DNA of 61,449 bases from Bacillota bacterium (GTDB lineage: Bacteria > Bacillota > Sulfobacillia > JAJZYS01 > JAJYTV01). Of the stretch, positions 26,402-54,249 are shown in pieces. The position numbers and the translations under genes are program-made. The stretch covers positions 1-61,449 of the forward strand of contig JAJYSJ010000014.1 of the NCBI GenBank assembly GCA_021793645.1, in the 5' to 3' direction. Under the pieces are notes generated by a model. The model was not told the origin of the DNA and ran no database searches. It saw only the letters and a program-made list of their open reading frames with translations. Position 1 is the stretch's first letter. Every line of letters begins with the position of its first letter.

Positions 26402-27346
26402 ATGGCCAAGGCGAGAGTGGACGGGCCTGCGCAGCTCAAGGCGCCTACGCATGCCTATGACTTCCGCCGTTCCCGCCGTCTCTCCGCTGACCAGATGCGC
26501 AGCCTGGAACGGATCCATGAACATTACGCCAGCCTGCTTGGCACGTACCTCACCGCCTATCTGCGCACCCGCGTGACCTGCGAACTGCGCGACGTGACCC
26601 AGACGATGTTCGAAGACATCGTCCGTGCTCAGCCGGCGCGCAGCATCGTCGCCACCATTTCCGCAGAGCCGCTGGCAGGCCCCGCGATGATGCAGCTCAA
26701 CGCGGACATCGCGCATGGGCTGATCGACCGCCTGCTGGGCGGCTCCGGTGACGTTCACGTCCTCGAGCGCGCGTTCACCGACATCGACGTGCATGTTCTC
26801 GAACGCGGCGTCCCGATCTTCGTCGAGACCTTGGGCGAGGCGTGGACCTCTGTGGAGCGGCTGCGTACGGGCATTCGCCTGCTCGAGGCGTCCCCGCAGT
26901 TCCTGCGCCTCGTGGGGCCGCAGGACGCAGTCGTCCAGGTCACGTTGGAGGTTTCGTTCGCGCACATGACGGGCGAGATCGGCGTGGTGCTGCCGTATGA
27001 CGCCCTGAAGCCGATCCTCCCCAAGCTGACATCCGTCGCGCTTCTCACCGAGCAAGTGGACCAGCAGCCGGGAGATGCGGACGGTGCACGGATGCTGCAG
27101 CGCAGCGCCATGGGAATCGAGATGGAGCTAAGGGCGGTGCTCGGCAGCGCAGACATCACCGTGTCGCAGTTTTTGGACCTCGACGCGGGGGACGTTGTGC
27201 TGCTCGGCACCAGAGCCGACCAGCCTGTGACCGTTTACGTCGAGGGCCGCCCGAAGTTCCGGGCCTGGCCGCGTGCGCGCCAGCGCAGGATCTGCCTCGA
27301 GATCGACGCCCGGATCGCCGAAGGAGGGGTTGGCCGTGCTGAATGA
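26402..27346 (+). CDS. fliM: FliM, flagellar motor switch protein lacking the CheY-docking motif
   Basis: A 314-residue FliM. The middle CheC-like domain starts at once (YDFRRSRRLSADQMRSLERIHE) and includes LIDRLLGGSGD; the C-terminal SpoA domain is at about 230-305. Most FliM proteins begin with a 15-residue LSQ-EIDALL motif that binds phosphorylated CheY; it is absent here, and only about 18 unrelated residues precede the middle domain. No upstream start would restore it. Motor response to CheY must therefore act through another protein (see 48509). Confidence 0.93.
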   Translation: MAKARVDGPAQLKAPTHAYDFRRSRRLSADQMRSLERIHEHYASLLGTYLTAYLRTRVTCELRDVTQTMFEDIVRAQPARSIVATISAEPLAGPAMMQLNADIAHGLIDRLLGGSGDVHVLERAFTDIDVHVLERGVPIFVETLGEAWTSVERLRTGIRLLEASPQFLRLVGPQDAVVQVTLEVSFAHMTGEIGVVLPYDALKPILPKLTSVALLTEQVDQQPGDADGARMLQRSAMGIEMELRAVLGSADITVSQFLDLDAGDVVLLGTRADQPVTVYVEGRPKFRAWPRARQRRICLEIDARIAEGGVGRAE

Positions 27347-28292
27347 CCAGGACCTCTCGACGTACGGCATTGTCCAGAACCTTGCCTGGGGTGGCAGCGT
27401 CCCTGCACTGGCGGAGCACCTCGGCTGGGACGCCCAGGCGGTAGTGAGCCGCGTACGCGAGGGAGAGGGGCCAAAGGAGGCCGCCCGGGTCTACCGCGTC
27501 AGCGGCCAGCTGATGATGGAAGGAGCCATCGAGTGCGACGCGGACCTCCTGGAGGCCCTCGGGGCCGGTTTGGACAGCGTCGCGATCGCGGCGCTGTCCA
27601 TGCTGGGCGAGGTGCTGCGGCGCACCGTCGAGGTGCGCACCGCTCCCCCGCCCGAGGACACCACGTCCCTGCACGGCGACTGGGTGCAGACGGCGGTGCG
27701 GGTGCTCGTCGGCGAAGAGAGCCACGAGATCCGCCAGTACATGCGCCCGACCGACGTCGCCGAGGTAGTGCGGGTCTTCTCGGCGGAAGACGAGGCTACG
27801 GGCGAGGCGGACGAAGGGCCGATCCTCGATGAGTCCCAGCTGCCCGAGGCGGCGAGGGAGCCGGAGTCTGCACCGGGCTCCCAGACCCCGCCGCGTCAGG
27901 CATCGGCGCCCAAGGTAGGAGGTGCGGCCGAGACAGCCGCTGCCATGGCACCCGAGGTGCCGTTCCAGGTCCAGCAGTGGCCGCAGGTCTCAGAGCAGCG
28001 GCCGGCAGCGGGTCCGCCCGCGTCCTTGGACCTCCTCTACGACGTGCCGCTTACCATGCGTGCGGAACTGGGACGCACCCGTCGCAAGGTCGAGGACATC
28101 ATCGGCTTTGGACCGGGCAGCGTCGTAGACCTCGACCGCATGGTCGGGGACATGGTCGACCTCTACGCGAACGGCCAGTGGGTCGCGCGTGGCGAGGTCG
28201 TCGTCGTGGAGGACAACTTCGGCGTGCGCATCACGGAGATTGGTTCCGCCGCGGAGCGTGCCCTCAAACTTCGCCTGCGGGAAGGGAGCTAG
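27336..28292 (+). CDS. FliY/FliN-like motor switch protein with a degenerate CheC-like region
   Basis: A 318-residue protein starting at GTG 27336, behind AAGGAGGGG and overlapping fliM by 11 bases. The C-terminal 80 residues are a SpoA/FliN domain (LDLLYDVPLTMRAELGRTRR, DLYANGQWVARGEVVVVEDN). Residues about 65-100 resemble a CheC unit (LLEALGAGLDSVAIAALSML), but the Asn needed for phosphatase activity is replaced, so it is probably inactive. A Pro/Ala-rich linker joins the two. It lacks the N-terminal EIDxLL motif that Bacillus FliY has. Probably the structural FliN of the C-ring. Confidence 0.85.
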   Translation: MLNDQDLSTYGIVQNLAWGGSVPALAEHLGWDAQAVVSRVREGEGPKEAARVYRVSGQLMMEGAIECDADLLEALGAGLDSVAIAALSMLGEVLRRTVEVRTAPPPEDTTSLHGDWVQTAVRVLVGEESHEIRQYMRPTDVAEVVRVFSAEDEATGEADEGPILDESQLPEAAREPESAPGSQTPPRQASAPKVGGAAETAAAMAPEVPFQVQQWPQVSEQRPAAGPPASLDLLYDVPLTMRAELGRTRRKVEDIIGFGPGSVVDLDRMVGDMVDLYANGQWVARGEVVVVEDNFGVRITEIGSAAERALKLRLREGS

Positions 28293-47651: not shown

Positions 47652-48284
47652 TCAGAGCCCCCGGAGTTGCTGCAGCCGCTTGCGCTCTTGGCGCAGGACA
47701 TAGGCGATGACCCGGTCCTGATCCTTTTCGGAGATCTCCAAAAAGTCGAACCCGACCAGCCGGCTGCGGTAGGGACCATCGCCCGTGCGGACGGCGTACA
47801 TCCGGACCGCCACCAGCGGGCCCTGGCCCAGGGAGAGCATCGCCTCGACGACGTCGCGGTGCAGGATCTGCGTTTCCGGCGGACAGTGTGCCAGAAGGCC
47901 GCAGCCGGAGAGGTCTAGTGCGCGGCAGGCCCGGTCGCGGATGGTCAGCGGCAGATCCACAGGCGTCCGATGGAAGCGGCGCTTGGCGAAGCGGTCGACC
48001 TGCGTCGGCACGCGCGCCACGAGTTCGCCCCCGGCGGTGGTGCCGATGATCGAGAACTCAGCGACGAGCGTCGCCATATCCGCTTCACTGCGGGCGATCA
48101 GCCGGGTGCCCGGCGGGTAGGCGTTAGGGAGGCCCCGCTGCCTCTTATCCGGACTGAGGATCAGCAGGCCGTCCTCATATCGGGATAAGATGATATGCAG
48201 GACGTCTGTGCCCTCCTGCTCGATGCGCTCTAAGGAAAGCCGAGCCCCTACCGGAAACGCTTGCACCGATTCCAGGGAATCCAC
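47652..48284 (-). CDS. YcgR-like PilZ domain protein (cyclic-di-GMP receptor)
   Basis: A 210-residue protein with an N-terminal PilZN/YcgR-N barrel (about 10-95) and a C-terminal PilZ domain. The cyclic-di-GMP motifs are intact: R102-xxx-R106 in FAKRRFHRT and D124-x-S-x-x-G129 in LDLSGCG. Proteins of this type slow flagella when cyclic-di-GMP rises, by touching stator or C-ring. It stands alone between flagellin and the divergent chemotaxis operon. The GTG start has a run of G just upstream. Confidence 0.92.
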   Translation of the reverse strand: MDSLESVQAFPVGARLSLERIEQEGTDVLHIILSRYEDGLLILSPDKRQRGLPNAYPPGTRLIARSEADMATLVAEFSIIGTTAGGELVARVPTQVDRFAKRRFHRTPVDLPLTIRDRACRALDLSGCGLLAHCPPETQILHRDVVEAMLSLGQGPLVAVRMYAVRTGDGPYRSRLVGFDFLEISEKDQDRVIAYVLRQERKRLQQLRGL

Positions 48285-48508
48285 CCCCCCAGCACTGTAA
48301 AGGTGGCCAGCATTACATGAATGTGGAATTGTGTCGATTTTTCGCAGGATTTATGCTGCGCACGACAGAACCTAAAAACGCCAATGACTCCATCTGAGCC
48401 CAGGGTAGCACCCAAGGACGGTCTGGGGAAGCGCAATATATGAGACGCATGCCGGATTGACTCCGTGGCAGCGATCTCCTATTCTCACGCGCAACGGAGG
48501 TGCGATAC
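48285..48508. other. divergent intergenic region between the PilZ gene and the che operon
   Basis: About 220 bases with no gene. It holds the sigma-A-type promoter of the chemotaxis operon at its right end. A promoter for the PilZ gene should lie at its left end but I cannot single one out. Confidence 0.6.
48457..48485 (+). promoter_or_regulatory. sigma-A-type promoter of the chemotaxis operon
   Basis: TTGACT (48457-48462), exactly 17 bases, then TATTCT (48480-48485). Transcription would begin near 48492, leaving a leader of about 17 bases with the GGAGG ribosome site at 48496-48500. This is the clearest housekeeping promoter in the window. Confidence 0.75.
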
Positions 48509-48922
48509 ATGCCTGAGGATCCAATGCTGAGCCAGGCGGAAATCGACGCGCTTCTGCGCAGCCTGGGTGAGGCGGCGGAGACTCCGCAGGTCGAGGAAGT
48601 GCCAAAGGCCCCGGAGCCCTATGCGCCACTGGAAGTGGCGCGCCCGGCTACGCCCCGCACACTTCCCGAAGGCATCGAGATGCTGCTGGGCGTCGAGGTG
48701 ACTTGCAGCGTGGACCTGGGCGAGATGGAACTGGAATTCGGGGAGCTCCTTTCGCTTGGTCGCTCGTCGCTCGTCGTGCTGAGCGGCACGCTCGACGCCC
48801 CATTCGTGCTGCGGGTCAACGGTGTGCCGTTCGCCTATGGCACGATCGTCGAGACGAATGGGCGATACGGCCTGCGCATCATCGAGCTCGCGCAACCGCA
48901 GGAGGAGGCACACGCGTCTTGA
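48509..48922 (+). CDS. short FliN-type switch protein carrying the CheY-docking motif
   Basis: A 137-residue protein with a FliM-type N-terminal motif MLSQAEIDALLRSLGE (residues 6-21), a Pro/Ala linker, and a C-terminal SpoA/FliN domain (LLGVEVTCSVDLGEMELEFG, VNGVPFAYGTIVETNGRYGLRI). EIDALL is known to bind phosphorylated CheY in FliM and in Bacillus FliY. Here FliM and the FliY-like protein lack it, so this gene probably links CheY to the C-ring. ATG 48509 is preferred: GGAGG lies 8 bases upstream. First gene of the che operon; overlaps cheX. Confidence 0.9.
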   Translation: MPEDPMLSQAEIDALLRSLGEAAETPQVEEVPKAPEPYAPLEVARPATPRTLPEGIEMLLGVEVTCSVDLGEMELEFGELLSLGRSSLVVLSGTLDAPFVLRVNGVPFAYGTIVETNGRYGLRIIELAQPQEEAHAS

Positions 48923-49383
48923 AGGTCGAGTGGATCAATCCCTTTATCCGCGCCGCGAACCACGTCCTCGGTGAGATGGTCTCCTTCGAGCACCCGCAGC
49001 TTGGGCGCATCGAAATGGAGGAGAAGCCCTACACGACCGAGGAAGTGACTGCCATGCTCGGCGTCAGCGGCGTCCTCTCCGGTTCGGTGCTGCTCGGCAT
49101 GACAAGGGACGTCGCGGAGCAGATCGTCGAGCGGATGGTCGGCGAACGCACTCCGATCGAAGATCTGCTCGGCGAGTCGGCGCTCGGCGAGGTTGTGAAC
49201 ATGATCTCCGGCTCTGCGCTCCGCTTCCTGGAGAGTGCGGGCTATTCGTGCAACATCACCCCGCCCGTCGTCATCCGCGGCCAGGGCGCGGTCGTCTCGA
49301 CCATGGAGCGCCAGCGCCTCGTGGTCCCCATCCACTTCCCTACGGCTGTCTTCCAGCTCTCCGTCGCACTTCGGCAAGCCTAA
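48919..49383 (+). CDS. cheX: CheX-type CheY-P phosphatase
   Basis: A 154-residue CheX. The single active-site helix with paired Glu and Asn is present: ESALGEVVNMISGSAL. The N-terminus (VEWINPFIRAANHVLGEMV) is typical. CheX removes phosphate from CheY. TTG 48919 overlaps the upstream stop by 4 bases. Together with CheC at 53248 it gives the pathway two phosphatases. Confidence 0.92.
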   Translation: MKVEWINPFIRAANHVLGEMVSFEHPQLGRIEMEEKPYTTEEVTAMLGVSGVLSGSVLLGMTRDVAEQIVERMVGERTPIEDLLGESALGEVVNMISGSALRFLESAGYSCNITPPVVIRGQGAVVSTMERQRLVVPIHFPTAVFQLSVALRQA

Positions 49384-49406: not shown

Positions 49407-50474
49407 ATGCGGCGAATGCGGCTTGACGCCTCAGCCATCGGCATGGTGGTCGCGGAGCCGCCGACGGACCAGACTGGACGCCCACTTGTGGCTCCCGGCT
49501 CGACGCTCGATGCGGAGACCCTCGAGCGGCTGCGCCTGGCCGGCGTGCAGAGGGTCGCCGTCGACGACCCTGCCTTCCAAGACCTGCGCTTCGCGAGCCT
49601 CGTCTCACCCGAGACCCAGCGGCTGGCCCTCGCCGTCTTCGCCGAAGTACGCGAGCGCGTGCGCGCGCATCCCGAGACGCCGGTGCTGCGGGCGCCGTTC
49701 CACCGGCTGGCCCAGGCGGTGATCGAGGATGCGAACGACCTGCCGCTGGACCATGCGTCGTACCTCGAGCCGGCCAACATGGTTCAGCGCGACGCTGTGC
49801 ACGCGCTGAACCGGGCGAGCCTTGCGGTGCGCCTCGCGGGACACCGCGCCATGGGACGCTACCTCTCGGACCTCACCTACGCGGCCCTCACCTGCGACCT
49901 CGGCATGCTGCTGACACCGGAGGACCTGCGCATGCGTGATCCTCTCACCCCCGAGGAGTGGGAGGCAATCCGCGAGCACGTACCGGTCGGACTGCGCTTC
50001 CTCGATGCGTCCGAGGGCTGGACCGCCGTCACGCGCACGGCCGTCGGCCAGCACCACGAGCGGCTGGACGGCAGCGGATACCCGCAGGGCCTGCAGGCCG
50101 CCCAGATCCACCCGACAGCCGCGCTCCTCATGGTCTGCGATGTGTACGCAGCGATGCTCCTGCCGCGTTCAGACCGTCCGGAACTGACGCCGGAGGAAGC
50201 GCTTGCGGAGGTCGTCGGCTCCGCGGGCGCAGAGCTCGACTACGATCACGTCGCAGCCTTCCACCGCATGGTGCCGCCCTACCCCGTCGGCACCGAGGTG
50301 GAACTCTCGACGGGCGAGCGGGCCGTCGTGCTGAGTGTGCCGGCGAACCTCAAGTCCCGCCCGGTTGTCCGGGTGTTCCAGGATCGCGACGGCAACCGCC
50401 TGCAGCCCTGGTCCGAACTGGATCTCAGCGAGCGGGCGCAGCAGACGACGACCGTGGTCCGCGTCATCGCATAG
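49407..50474 (+). CDS. degenerate HD-GYP domain protein
   Basis: A 355-residue protein started at ATG 49407 behind AAGGAGGG. The HD-GYP core is recognisable: LTPEEWEAIREHVPVGLRFL and QHHERLDGSGYPQGL (from residue 216) are kept. The metal-binding HD pair, normally HDIGK, reads CDLGM at about 162-166, so one metal-binding His and the Lys are lost. It is therefore unlikely to hydrolyse cyclic-di-GMP normally and may be a binding or scaffold protein. Flanking N- and C-terminal parts are not recognised. Located between cheX and cheY. Confidence 0.85.
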   Translation: MRRMRLDASAIGMVVAEPPTDQTGRPLVAPGSTLDAETLERLRLAGVQRVAVDDPAFQDLRFASLVSPETQRLALAVFAEVRERVRAHPETPVLRAPFHRLAQAVIEDANDLPLDHASYLEPANMVQRDAVHALNRASLAVRLAGHRAMGRYLSDLTYAALTCDLGMLLTPEDLRMRDPLTPEEWEAIREHVPVGLRFLDASEGWTAVTRTAVGQHHERLDGSGYPQGLQAAQIHPTAALLMVCDVYAAMLLPRSDRPELTPEEALAEVVGSAGAELDYDHVAAFHRMVPPYPVGTEVELSTGERAVVLSVPANLKSRPVVRVFQDRDGNRLQPWSELDLSERAQQTTTVVRVIA

Positions 50475-50500: not shown

Positions 50501-50860
50501 TTGGCGAAAATTCTTGTTGTCGACGACGCGATGTTTATGCGCAGCCGGCTTCGCGGACTCCTGGAGGGCGCGGGCCATGACGTGACCGAGGCGCCCAATG
50601 GCAAGGAAGCGGTGGACCGCTTCACGGAGCTGCAGCCGGATCTTGTCTTGATGGATGTGACCATGCCGGAAATGGACGGGCTGGAGGCGTTGAAGCGCAT
50701 CCGCGCCGCGTCTCCCACCGCCCGCATCATCATGTGCTCTGCGCTCGGTCAGCAGTCGATCGTGCTCGAGGCGATCAAGGCTGGAGCCAAGGATTTCATC
50801 GTCAAACCCTTCCGCCCGGAAAAGGTGCTCGAGGCGGTCGGGCGGCAGATTCCGAGTTGA
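50501..50860 (+). CDS. cheY: CheY response regulator
   Basis: A 119-residue single receiver domain. Acidic pocket DD in ILVVDDAMFM, phospho-acceptor Asp52 in LVLMDVTMP, Thr/Ser at CSALG and Lys in DFIVKPFRPE are all present. TTG 50501 follows GGAGGG. When phosphorylated by CheA it should dock on the EIDALL-bearing FliN protein of the same operon. Confidence 0.96.
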   Translation: MAKILVVDDAMFMRSRLRGLLEGAGHDVTEAPNGKEAVDRFTELQPDLVLMDVTMPEMDGLEALKRIRAASPTARIIMCSALGQQSIVLEAIKAGAKDFIVKPFRPEKVLEAVGRQIPS

Positions 50861-50886: not shown

Positions 50887-51360
50887 ATGAGCGACGATGG
50901 GGAACTGCAGTTCGTACTCTTCGAGATCGAAGGAGTCCACTACGGCGTAGAGGTCGAGCGCGTGCTCGAGATCATCGCCCGTCCGGAAATTAGCCGCGTG
51001 CCGTCTGCCTTGGACTGCGTCGAGGGTGTCATCAACCTGCGCGGCAACGTCCTTCCGGTGATGGATCTGCGCATGCGCTTTCGCCTGGGCGGCGATGCGG
51101 CGAAGGCGACCCACATCGTCATCGTGCAGCTGCAGGGCGCCCTCGCCGGCATCTCCGTCGACGGCGTCTCGCAGGTGGTGCGCATCCCGATCGCCTCGAT
51201 CGAACCGGCGCCGCCTGCGATCACCGGGCCGCAGGTGCGCTACATCGAAGGCATCGCCAAGCTCGAGGGGACGCTCTGCGTACTCATCGACCTGGATCGC
51301 GCCTTCCGTCCCGAGGAACTCGCACTAGGCGCGGCAGGGGGTGATCTCGATGGCCGCTGA
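50887..51360 (+). CDS. cheW: CheW coupling protein (second copy)
   Basis: A 157-residue CheW with LFEIEGVHYGVEVERVLEI, RVPSALDCVEGVINLRGNVLPVMDL and a C-terminal LCVLIDLDRAF strand. It lies directly before cheA with a small overlap, indicating it is the core coupler of the receptor array. The copy at 4756 is more divergent and tied to one receptor. Confidence 0.95.
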   Translation: MSDDGELQFVLFEIEGVHYGVEVERVLEIIARPEISRVPSALDCVEGVINLRGNVLPVMDLRMRFRLGGDAAKATHIVIVQLQGALAGISVDGVSQVVRIPIASIEPAPPAITGPQVRYIEGIAKLEGTLCVLIDLDRAFRPEELALGAAGGDLDGR

Positions 51361-53251
51361 CGGAGGCTGGACGCTCACAGACGACGATCGCCAGCTGTTC
51401 TTCGCCGAGGCGGAGGAGATGGTGCAGACGCTCGAGGAGGGTGCCCTCGCGCTGGAGCGCGGTGGCGAGAACCCCGAGATGCTGCAGGCCATGTTCCGGG
51501 CCGCCCACACGCTCAAGGGCAACTCCGGCCTTGTCGGCGAGGCCGGCATCGCCGGCCACATGCACCACATGGAGGCGCTCCTCGACGACCTGCGCGAAGG
51601 TCGGGTGGCGGTGACGCCCGCACTCGTGCAGCAGGTGCTCTCGGGCATCGACGCATTGCGCGAGATGCTTGCCCAGTTCGCGCAGGGCGTCTCGCCAACC
51701 GCGGCCCCGCAGGCGCCGGCGGTGCCTCTGGCAGAGGGCGAGGCGCCAACAGCCGCGATCGGGCTGCCGCGCTACGTGGTGCAACTCGCCGTCGATCCGT
51801 CGTGCGCCATGCCTGCCGTACGGGTCTTCCAGGCCTACCAGGCACTTTCGCGCCTGGGCCTCGTCGAGCGTACCGACCCGCCGCAGGACGGCCTTGCACG
51901 GTTTGAGGGACGCAGTGCGACGGTCATCGTGCGCCTGCAGCGCCCGGATGACGTCAAGGAGGCCCTGGCGGACGTCGACGAGATCCAGCTGGAGAGCGTG
52001 CAGGCGGAGTCCGTAGTGGCGGCCGCAGCGCCGATGGCGCAGTCCGCCGAGGCTGAGCGCGAGGCGGCGACCCAGACCGTTCGCGTGCGCGTCGACCTCT
52101 TGGACCACTTGATGAACCTTGTCGGGGAGCTGGTGCTGGACCGCACCCGCGTCGCGGATCTGGTGTCCCGCCTCGATGGCGGCAAGGACGAACAGAGCGA
52201 AGAGGTCCGCCAGGAGCTCTCGCGCTCTTCGCTGCATCTCGGGCGCGTCACGCTCGACCTGCAAGAGACGATCATGAAGGCGCGCATGCTGCCGATCGAA
52301 CACCTGTTCCGCCGCTTCCCGCGCCTTGTCCGGGACTTGGCGGCGAAGTCCGGCAAGCGCATCGCGCTCGACATCTACGGCCAGGACACCGAGCTCGATC
52401 GCATGGTCATGGATGAGCTCGGCGATCCTCTGACCCACATCTTGCGCAACTCCGTCGACCACGGCATCGAGCCTCCGGAAAAACGCCTGGCCGCAGGCAA
52501 GACGGAGGAGGGGCACATCATCCTGCGCGCCTCCACCGAGGAGGGCTACGTCGTCGTCGACGTCGTGGACGACGGCGACGGCATCGACGCCGAGGCGGTG
52601 AAGCGCACGGCCCTAAGGCGCGGCGTCCTGACGCCGGAGCAGGCGGAGCGCATGACGATGCGCGAGGCGCAGGAGCTGATCTTCGCACCCGGCTTTTCGA
52701 CGTCGGAGGAGGTAACCGAGATCTCCGGGCGGGGTGTCGGGCTGGATGCGGTGCGCGCGTCCCTCGAGCGCCTGTCGGGTGTCGTCGACCTCGTCACGGA
52801 AGCGGGGAAGGGCACGACCTTCCGCCTGCGCATCCCGCTGACGCTGGCGATCATGCGCGCACTGATGGTGCGCACAGGCGACTCCGTCTACGCACTGCCG
52901 CTGGGCGCCGTGCGCCAGATCGTCCGCCTCAACGCGCAGAACGTCCAGGTCGCCCATGGCCGCCCGCTGCTCGCCGACCGCGGCGAACTGATCGGGCTGC
53001 TCTCGCTGGCGGAAATCTACGGCGAGCCGGGGCGGCAGGACGAGACGTTCGCGGTGGTCGTCGGCGCCGGCGAGCGACAGGTGGCGCTGAAGGTGGGGGC
53101 GCTCCTTGGCGAGCAGGAGATCGTCCTCAAGGCGTTCGGAGACTTCCTGGGCGCGGTGCCGGGCCTCACCGGAGCGACGATCCTCGGCAACGGGGAGCTT
53201 GCCCTCGTCGCAGACGTGCGCTACTTCCTGCGCGGCAAGGAGGCGTCGTGA
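51350..53251 (+). CDS. cheA: CheA histidine kinase
   Basis: A 633-residue CheA. P1 phosphotransfer domain has His53 in FRAAHTLKGNSG; a P2-like region is at about 140-225; P3 dimerisation, P4 kinase (N box LRNSVDHGIEPPEKRLAAGK, G boxes VDDGDGID and GRGVGLDAV) and P5 CheW-like domains follow. It phosphorylates CheY and CheB. ATG 51350 has GGGGGTGA upstream; a GTG at 51341 is possible. Overlaps cheC by 4 bases. Confidence 0.97.
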   Translation: MAADGGWTLTDDDRQLFFAEAEEMVQTLEEGALALERGGENPEMLQAMFRAAHTLKGNSGLVGEAGIAGHMHHMEALLDDLREGRVAVTPALVQQVLSGIDALREMLAQFAQGVSPTAAPQAPAVPLAEGEAPTAAIGLPRYVVQLAVDPSCAMPAVRVFQAYQALSRLGLVERTDPPQDGLARFEGRSATVIVRLQRPDDVKEALADVDEIQLESVQAESVVAAAAPMAQSAEAEREAATQTVRVRVDLLDHLMNLVGELVLDRTRVADLVSRLDGGKDEQSEEVRQELSRSSLHLGRVTLDLQETIMKARMLPIEHLFRRFPRLVRDLAAKSGKRIALDIYGQDTELDRMVMDELGDPLTHILRNSVDHGIEPPEKRLAAGKTEEGHIILRASTEEGYVVVDVVDDGDGIDAEAVKRTALRRGVLTPEQAERMTMREAQELIFAPGFSTSEEVTEISGRGVGLDAVRASLERLSGVVDLVTEAGKGTTFRLRIPLTLAIMRALMVRTGDSVYALPLGAVRQIVRLNAQNVQVAHGRPLLADRGELIGLLSLAEIYGEPGRQDETFAVVVGAGERQVALKVGALLGEQEIVLKAFGDFLGAVPGLTGATILGNGELALVADVRYFLRGKEAS

Positions 53252-53781
53252 TACCAAAGGAACCGGTGGAGCACGACCCGACCGGCCTGCAGGACGCGCT
53301 CTCGGAACTGCTCGGCGTCCATGTCGACCTGCAGGAGAGCGCTCCGCAGCGCTACGCCCTGCGCGACATCCCGAACCTGGCCGGGCCGGCGGACAGCTCG
53401 GCCGTGGCCGTGTACCTGAGGGCAGCCGGGGTATTCCAAGGGCAGATCCTCCTGATCTTGCCGCCGCAGAGCGCCCGGCGGATCGGCGACCTGATGCTCG
53501 GTCCCGGCAAGTCGAGCGAGCACGTCCTCGACGCCTGCCGAGAGCTTGGGAACATCGTGGCATCGCGCTATCTGTCCCGGATGGCAGATGCCATTGGAGG
53601 GCGCGCAATTCCCTCGACGCCCCTTTCTACAGTGGATATGGCGGGTGCGGTGATCAGTTCAGTGCTGCAGCGCGCAAGCCACGATCCAGTGGTGCACGCC
53701 ATCGAGCTGCGCATGCAGGCGGCGGGGGACGCGATCCGCGGCACCGTACTCGTACTCCAGGACCAGACAAGCGAGGCATAG
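53248..53781 (+). CDS. cheC: CheC-type CheY-P phosphatase
   Basis: A 177-residue CheC. The N-terminus matches the family (LQDALSELLGVHVDL), and one active-site helix CRELGNIVASRYLS retains Glu and Asn; the usual second site is not evident. CheC dephosphorylates CheY and is stimulated by binding CheD, encoded next (1 base apart). The GTG start overlaps cheA. Confidence 0.9.
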   Translation: MIPKEPVEHDPTGLQDALSELLGVHVDLQESAPQRYALRDIPNLAGPADSSAVAVYLRAAGVFQGQILLILPPQSARRIGDLMLGPGKSSEHVLDACRELGNIVASRYLSRMADAIGGRAIPSTPLSTVDMAGAVISSVLQRASHDPVVHAIELRMQAAGDAIRGTVLVLQDQTSEA

Positions 53782-54249
53782 ATGGTAAAACGCACACCAG
53801 TGGGACTCGGTGAACTGTGCATCAGTGCGGATCCCCATGAGCGCCTATGCATCTTTGGCCTCGGTTCCTGCATCGCCGTCTACCTCTACGCACCTGGAAC
53901 ATCGGCAACCGCTCTGGCGCACGTCGTCCTGCCGGAGAGCCAGGGGCGTCCAGGGGAACCGGGGCGCTACGCCGACACAGCGGTGCCCGCACTGGTCGCC
54001 GGCCTGCGCAGCCTGGGGCATGAACCGCACCGGCTGCGTGCGGCCATCGCCGGAGGCGCAGCGGTGCTGGGCTTCACAAGTGAGATCGGGCAGCAGAACA
54101 TTCGGGCGGTACGGCGCTACCTCGAGGACTTTGGAATCCCCGTCGTCCAAGACGACACGGGAGGAATCCGCGGCCGTTCGGTGGAGTTCGATCCGCAGGG
54201 TCAGCACATCGAGGTGCGGGTGCTCGCTGCACCGCAGGTGTCGATTTAG
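53782..54249 (+). CDS. cheD: CheD receptor deamidase
   Basis: A 155-residue CheD. The catalytic Cys30 (FGLGSCIAVYLY) and His47 (LAHVVLPES) are present, and GGAAVLGF and IGQQNI fit the family. CheD deamidates glutamines on chemoreceptors and regulates CheC. It is directly downstream of cheC, the usual pairing. Confidence 0.95.
   Translation: MVKRTPVGLGELCISADPHERLCIFGLGSCIAVYLYAPGTSATALAHVVLPESQGRPGEPGRYADTAVPALVAGLRSLGHEPHRLRAAIAGGAAVLGFTSEIGQQNIRAVRRYLEDFGIPVVQDDTGGIRGRSVEFDPQGQHIEVRVLAAPQVSI

Follow-up and report, generated by a model that had tools for sequence, protein, structure and literature searches.

In a family of uncultured Bacillota (JAJYTV01, class Sulfobacillia), the CheY-docking motif of the flagellar switch is found on neither FliM nor the FliY-like protein, and is carried instead by a small FliN-type protein, here designated FliN2, whose gene opens the chemotaxis operon. 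The relocation of this putative CheY dock is real, conserved and functionally constrained. We consider it probable (roughly 70%) that FliN2 is a C-ring subunit at the FliN position and the only high-affinity dock for phosphorylated CheY (CheY-P), produced alongside CheX and CheY. Incorporation into the ring, binding of CheY-P and control of switch sensitivity by expression of the chemotaxis operon, possibly in a sigma-H-dependent manner, are what we infer from the comparisons described below.

A FliN-type protein with a CheY-docking motif

The window, which is the whole stretch of 61,449 nucleotides analysed here (contig JAJYSJ010000014.1), belongs to a 94-contig assembly of 3.4 Mb that is 96.3% complete. 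The sequence-only reading had placed a 137-residue FliN-type protein with the motif LSQAEIDALL at 48509-48922, and both coordinates and motif proved exact. FliN2, encoded on the forward strand, opens with MPEDPMLSQAEIDALLRS. The docking motif LSQAEIDALLRS spans residues 7-18 (LSQAEIDALL being residues 7-16) and is followed by a variable linker (residues 19-53) and a SpoA/FliN domain (residues 54-133; the Pfam SpoA domain covers residues 58-127). The codons for LSQAEIDALL (48527-48556, forward strand) are the sole match of a degenerate DNA pattern for LSQxEIDALL in the 3.4-Mb genome, and a reversed-pattern control gave zero matches in the same genome. A whole-genome profile search with PF01052 (FliMN_C) returned exactly three matches, all within the window, corresponding to the C-termini of FliM and the FliY-like protein and to FliN2; among these three SpoA proteins, FliN2 alone bears LSQAEIDALLRS. 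A second fliM with EIDxLL, which had been named as the observation that would refute the relocation, is not present, since PF01052 gives only these three matches and the LSQxEIDALL pattern a single one.

FliM and the FliY-like protein of the structural operon

FliM (26402-27346, forward strand) retains its middle domain, including the GGSG loop, and its SpoA domain. Its ATG lies 31 bases after the end of the preceding gene, and neither a start codon nor a motif was found upstream of this position. The Pfam FliM domain starts at residue 19 and TIGR01397 aligns from model position 33 only, and the N-terminal tether is therefore missing, which bears out the proposal that FliM starts directly with the middle domain. 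FliM from Bacillus subtilis carries the docking motif, whereas that of the family does not. FliM displays PF02154 without the motif and FliN2 displays the motif without PF02154, so that neither protein combines the two features expected of FliM.

The FliY-like protein (27336-28292, forward strand) contains a canonical C-terminal FliN domain and, as had also been claimed, no EIDxLL. Its N-terminal domain (27336-27800, about 150 residues) is of an unassigned family and is conserved, the first 45 residues being nearly invariant within the family. Searches of Pfam and NCBIfam gave no match for this domain, and none to CheC or CheX. That it represents a dead CheC/CheX phosphatase was considered but found no support: no Pfam match was obtained, hhalign against CheX gave a probability of 2%, and the AlphaFold model had a pLDDT of 36.

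Conservation of FliN2 in the family

Ten genomes from two genera were available for the family, and nine contain the FliN2 locus. A separate search of contigs for close relatives gave a single locus, identical to the record of G002. The survey of FliM, FliY and short EIDALL-bearing FliN proteins in relatives, which had been called for at the outset, revealed L[SN]Q-x-EIDALLRS at the N-terminus of FliN2 in all nine genomes and no motif at any readable N-terminus of FliM (7/7) or FliY (7/7). The arrangement, with the motif on a small FliN that opens the chemotaxis operon and off FliM and FliY, holds in 9/9 family genomes with data, and absence from all relatives, the second proposed refutation, does not apply.

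It could be argued that incomplete assembly or a frameshift concealed the true FliM start, or a second fliM, the window genome being in 94 contigs and 96.3% complete. Against this stand the 31-base interval upstream of fliM, which offers neither start codon nor motif, and the six family genomes that are at least 90% complete, each encoding exactly three SpoA proteins with the identical motif split. This explanation is refuted by the family-wide conservation of the split, and we give it practically no weight.

Conservation is strongest at the place expected of a dock: amino-acid identity across the family is 94% in the motif stretch (residues 4-18), 30% in the linker and 70% in the SpoA region. 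The corresponding pN/pS values are 0.14, 0.73 and 0.43, with synonymous sites well diverged, and the motif of FliN2 is evidently under purifying selection. As far as the contigs reach, gene order is constant, with divergent PilZ and flagellin genes followed by FliN2-cheX-HD-GYP-cheY-cheW-cheA-cheC-cheD.

Relationship of FliN2 to other SpoA proteins

A tree was built from 79 SpoA domains of 36 genomes, and it placed FliN2 with FliN and apart from FliM (100/99). FliN2 was monophyletic (99/98) on a long branch, and the FliM and FliY C-domains of the family were found at their expected places. Judging from this placement, FliN2 is not a truncated FliM but a divergent paralogue of FliN whose N-terminus is of the FliM type. 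The tree comprises 71 columns and does not settle the origin of FliN2 relative to the extra FliN proteins of genomes G016, G017, G020 and G035. FliN2 scored 56.7 bits with PF01052 (cut-off 23.8), compared to 83.7 bits for the SpoA domain of the FliY-like protein, a divergence that raises the possibility that FliN2 does not pack like FliN. With TIGR02480, the NCBIfam equivalog model for fliN, it scored 42.8 bits, below the cut-off of 84.05. Its matches in the PDB are FliN chains of the C-ring, over residues 54-133; a PDB search with the motif peptide alone, which is too short, returned only calmodulin noise.

In the AlphaFold model of FliN2, residues 9-21 form a helix, the linker is disordered and a SpoA-like region is recognizable; confidence is modest (pLDDT 56 overall and about 65-74 on the motif helix). 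All nine genomes have the N-terminal LSQxEIDxLL helix, with 94% identity and a predicted helix, and a flexible linker after it. The same order of helix and linker is found in FliMN, the N-terminal CheY-P tether of FliM in Escherichia coli and Thermotoga maritima; in the family the dock differs from FliMN in residing on FliN, and consequently in copy number, radial position and operon.

FliN docks the export ATPase complex through FliH. FliN2 might accordingly act mainly in export or as a structural variant of the C-ring (in FliH docking, or as an alternative FliN), with its motif minor or redundant; PMC8809382 refers to docking via FliN. As the motif is the best-conserved part of FliN2, the gene opens the chemotaxis operon and the single pattern match leaves the genome with no other dock, we regard such a role as very unlikely.

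The chemotaxis operon

FliN2 is followed, all on the forward strand, by cheX (48919-49383), a gene for an HD-GYP-type protein (49407-50474; HD_5), cheY (50501-50860, start approximate), cheW (50887-51360, start approximate), cheA (51341-53251), cheC (53248-53781) and cheD (53782-54249). CheX, a predicted CheY-P phosphatase, matches PF13690 with 65.0 bits and retains E91 and N94, which are invariant in the family and which we take to be its catalytic ExxN residues. Of the 114 positions aligned between the CheY of the operon and that of T. maritima, 65 are identical, and on this basis we regard the former as a conventional motor-type CheY. The TTG start codon of cheX overlaps the stop codon of FliN2 (TTGA), and an overlap of 4 bases (TTGA or GTGA) is present in 9/9 genomes, which suggests that the two genes are translationally coupled.

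This overlap in all nine genomes, together with the position of FliN2 outside the structural operon, could also indicate that FliN2 works with CheX as a soluble protein, capturing CheY-P via EIDALL and passing it to CheX as part of a phosphate-removal module or a CheY-P buffer, while CheY-P contacts FliM/FliY weakly and directly. The distribution of the two proteins agrees with this, as within the order CheX is confined to the family with FliN2, and order-mates without FliN2 are also without CheX. FliN2, however, retains the full FliN-type SpoA domain that forms the ring, and a soluble FliN2 would leave a chemotactic motor without any tethering site, contrary to the rest of the class. We therefore find a purely soluble function improbable and favor FliN2 as the CheY-P dock within the C-ring.

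The order-mates G010 and G011, which have neither CheA nor CheX, raised the question of whether the family had imported a chemotaxis operon that brought its own dock. In a CheA tree the family was placed inside the class, separate from the outgroups T. maritima and E. coli (98/95), and import from outside the class is therefore unsupported. CheA of G022 (L103) grouped with T. maritima CheA and not with the class (95/81), making this cheA a candidate for horizontal transfer.

Wherever the contigs of the family extend far enough, the FliN2-che operon contains an HD-GYP gene and has a divergently oriented PilZ-domain gene (47652-48284 in the window) beside it. The PilZ and HD-GYP genes may possibly provide a cyclic-di-GMP link to the switch.

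The region upstream of FliN2

The operon had been described as having a strong sigma-A promoter. A sigma-A-like site does exist (TTGACT-17-TATTCT, 48457-48485, forward strand, 9/12 match), but it is conserved only in G000 and G003, two of the nine family genomes, whereas a sigma-H-type element is conserved in all nine. The latter, GCAGGATTT-N12-ACAGAAC at 48344-48371 of the window (forward strand), corresponds to a conserved element GCAGGAWWW-N11/12-RNNGAAY that lies on the FliN2 strand, some 140-180 bases upstream of the gene. The sigma-H consensus is RNAGGAWWW-N11/12-RNNGAAT; four genomes fit it exactly, four have a final C, and G004 fits loosely. The strict form of the element is found in 8/9 genomes, and the loose pattern, which was derived from these same nine upstream sequences, occurs exactly once per genome in all nine, always upstream of FliN2. 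Shuffling gave an expectation of 0.01 occurrences of the loose pattern in the window. With the conserved upstream element being sigma-H-like, sigma-A control is unsupported. SigH itself is encoded in the window genome (373.7 bits, well over the cut-off), and no match to a sigma-D promoter pattern (TAAA-N14-16-GCCGATA) was found in the window. The conserved element and the presence of SigH suggest that the chemotaxis operon may be under the control of sigma-H, the transition-state/sporulation sigma factor.

Docking motifs across the class

The class was surveyed in 36 genomes, which represent about 27 families, and LSQxEIDxLL or a variant of it is present on the majority of their FliM proteins. 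In G017, G029, G030 and G036 a neighboring FliN/FliY, and not FliM, bears the motif; G010 and G020 are weaker cases of this kind. A pattern survey of the class (n=80), too narrow in that trailing bases shut out variants, added G050, G076 and G084 with a motif-less FliM and the motif on FliN/FliY. As several genomes display this combination, the docking motif has moved repeatedly between C-ring proteins within the class, and a FliM without the motif is not unique to the family. In G017, G029, G030, G036, G050 and G076, FliM likewise begins with the middle domain, and a FliN-domain protein is the carrier of the motif; the motif gene in these six relatives adjoins fliM in the structural operon, whereas in the family it is in the chemotaxis operon. 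No FliN was found at the head of a che operon at the cheA loci examined in other class members. What is specific to the family is the separate motif-bearing FliN heading the chemotaxis operon.

All class genomes that encode CheA, and in which the N-termini of FliM and FliN/FliY could be read, have a motif on at least one C-ring protein, counting the degenerate case of G032. The genomes without a convincing motif anywhere, G011 and G038, have no CheA. The relationship is not a strict rule, because G032 encodes CheA but has no more than a degenerate motif on FliM; G015 and G039 are examples of genomes that keep motifs without having CheA.

Several further arrangements were noted. In G017 (L082:8742-9197), an extra FliN with LTQEEIDALLKS is encoded about 7 kb from cheA and flanked by respiratory genes, and the structural FliN of this genome is also motif-like at its N-terminus. 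In G020 (L078:16160-17960), genes for a CheY-like receiver, an HD-GYP-like protein and an extra small FliN (LTQEQVDELL) are in tandem. This protein resembles FliN2 as a second motif-bearing FliN beside HD-GYP-like and CheY-like receiver genes, but differs in sitting in a flagellar gene cluster, in a genome without CheA, and in being separate from FliN2 in the tree. In the Symbiobacterium-like G035 (L079:5646-7173), cheX is directly downstream of a fliM with LSQAEIDALV, forming a pair of dock-bearing switch gene and cheX outside a che operon.

Discussion

In the mechanism that we propose, the C-ring of the family would contain two FliN-type subunits and a FliM unable to tether CheY itself. FliN2 would enter FliN positions of the ring via its SpoA domain, and its EIDALL helix, borne on a flexible linker some 35 residues long, would be the sole high-affinity dock for CheY-P. 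Docked CheY-P would then act on the ring core, the FliM middle domain or FliN, following the known two-step scheme, and CheX, translated in step with FliN2, would remove the phosphate. Because FliN2 is translated in step with this phosphatase, the pair may act like a Bacillus FliY (dock, FliN and phosphatase) divided over two genes. FliY from B. subtilis and T. maritima, composed of the motif, a CheC-type phosphatase and a FliN domain, resembles FliN2 as a dock that is not on FliM, is attached to a FliN domain and is tied to a CheY-P phosphatase. In the family, by contrast, the dock with FliN (FliN2) and the phosphatase (CheX) are encoded by two different genes of the che operon that overlap translationally, and the FliY-like protein of the window has neither the motif nor a detectable CheC domain. 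The FliY architecture is not present in one chain, FliN2 having no phosphatase domain and the FliY-like protein neither motif nor CheC/CheX match.

A more speculative extension, which we think doubtful, is that the structural operon builds a motor that is blind to chemotaxis, and that this motor becomes CheY-responsive only once the sigma-H-driven che operon supplies FliN2, entering the ring by subunit exchange. Under this extension, a rotor subunit that is controlled by chemotaxis and produced in concert with the phosphatase belonging to it would determine sensitivity.

According to PMC9126983, FliM and FliY "of all motile bacteria" contain the EIDALL motif, and the family described here, as a whole, has it in neither. 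The new element is the che-operon FliN as sole carrier, loss of the motif from FliM being already common in the class; we found no report of such a protein in the open-licence literature searched, where absence is not proof of novelty. The location of the motif can move between C-ring subunits inside one class. CheY binding is modelled as tether-then-core, in two steps (PMC9126983, PMC7355467), and the second sites have been proposed to lie on the middle domain of FliM or on FliN (PMC7355467). A tether on FliN and not on FliM alters both its copy number and its position relative to these proposed sites, and the family therefore represents a natural test of the two-step model and of the dosing of switch sensitivity. 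The link of the motor to chemotaxis could be turned on, or its dose adjusted, independently of the motor itself.
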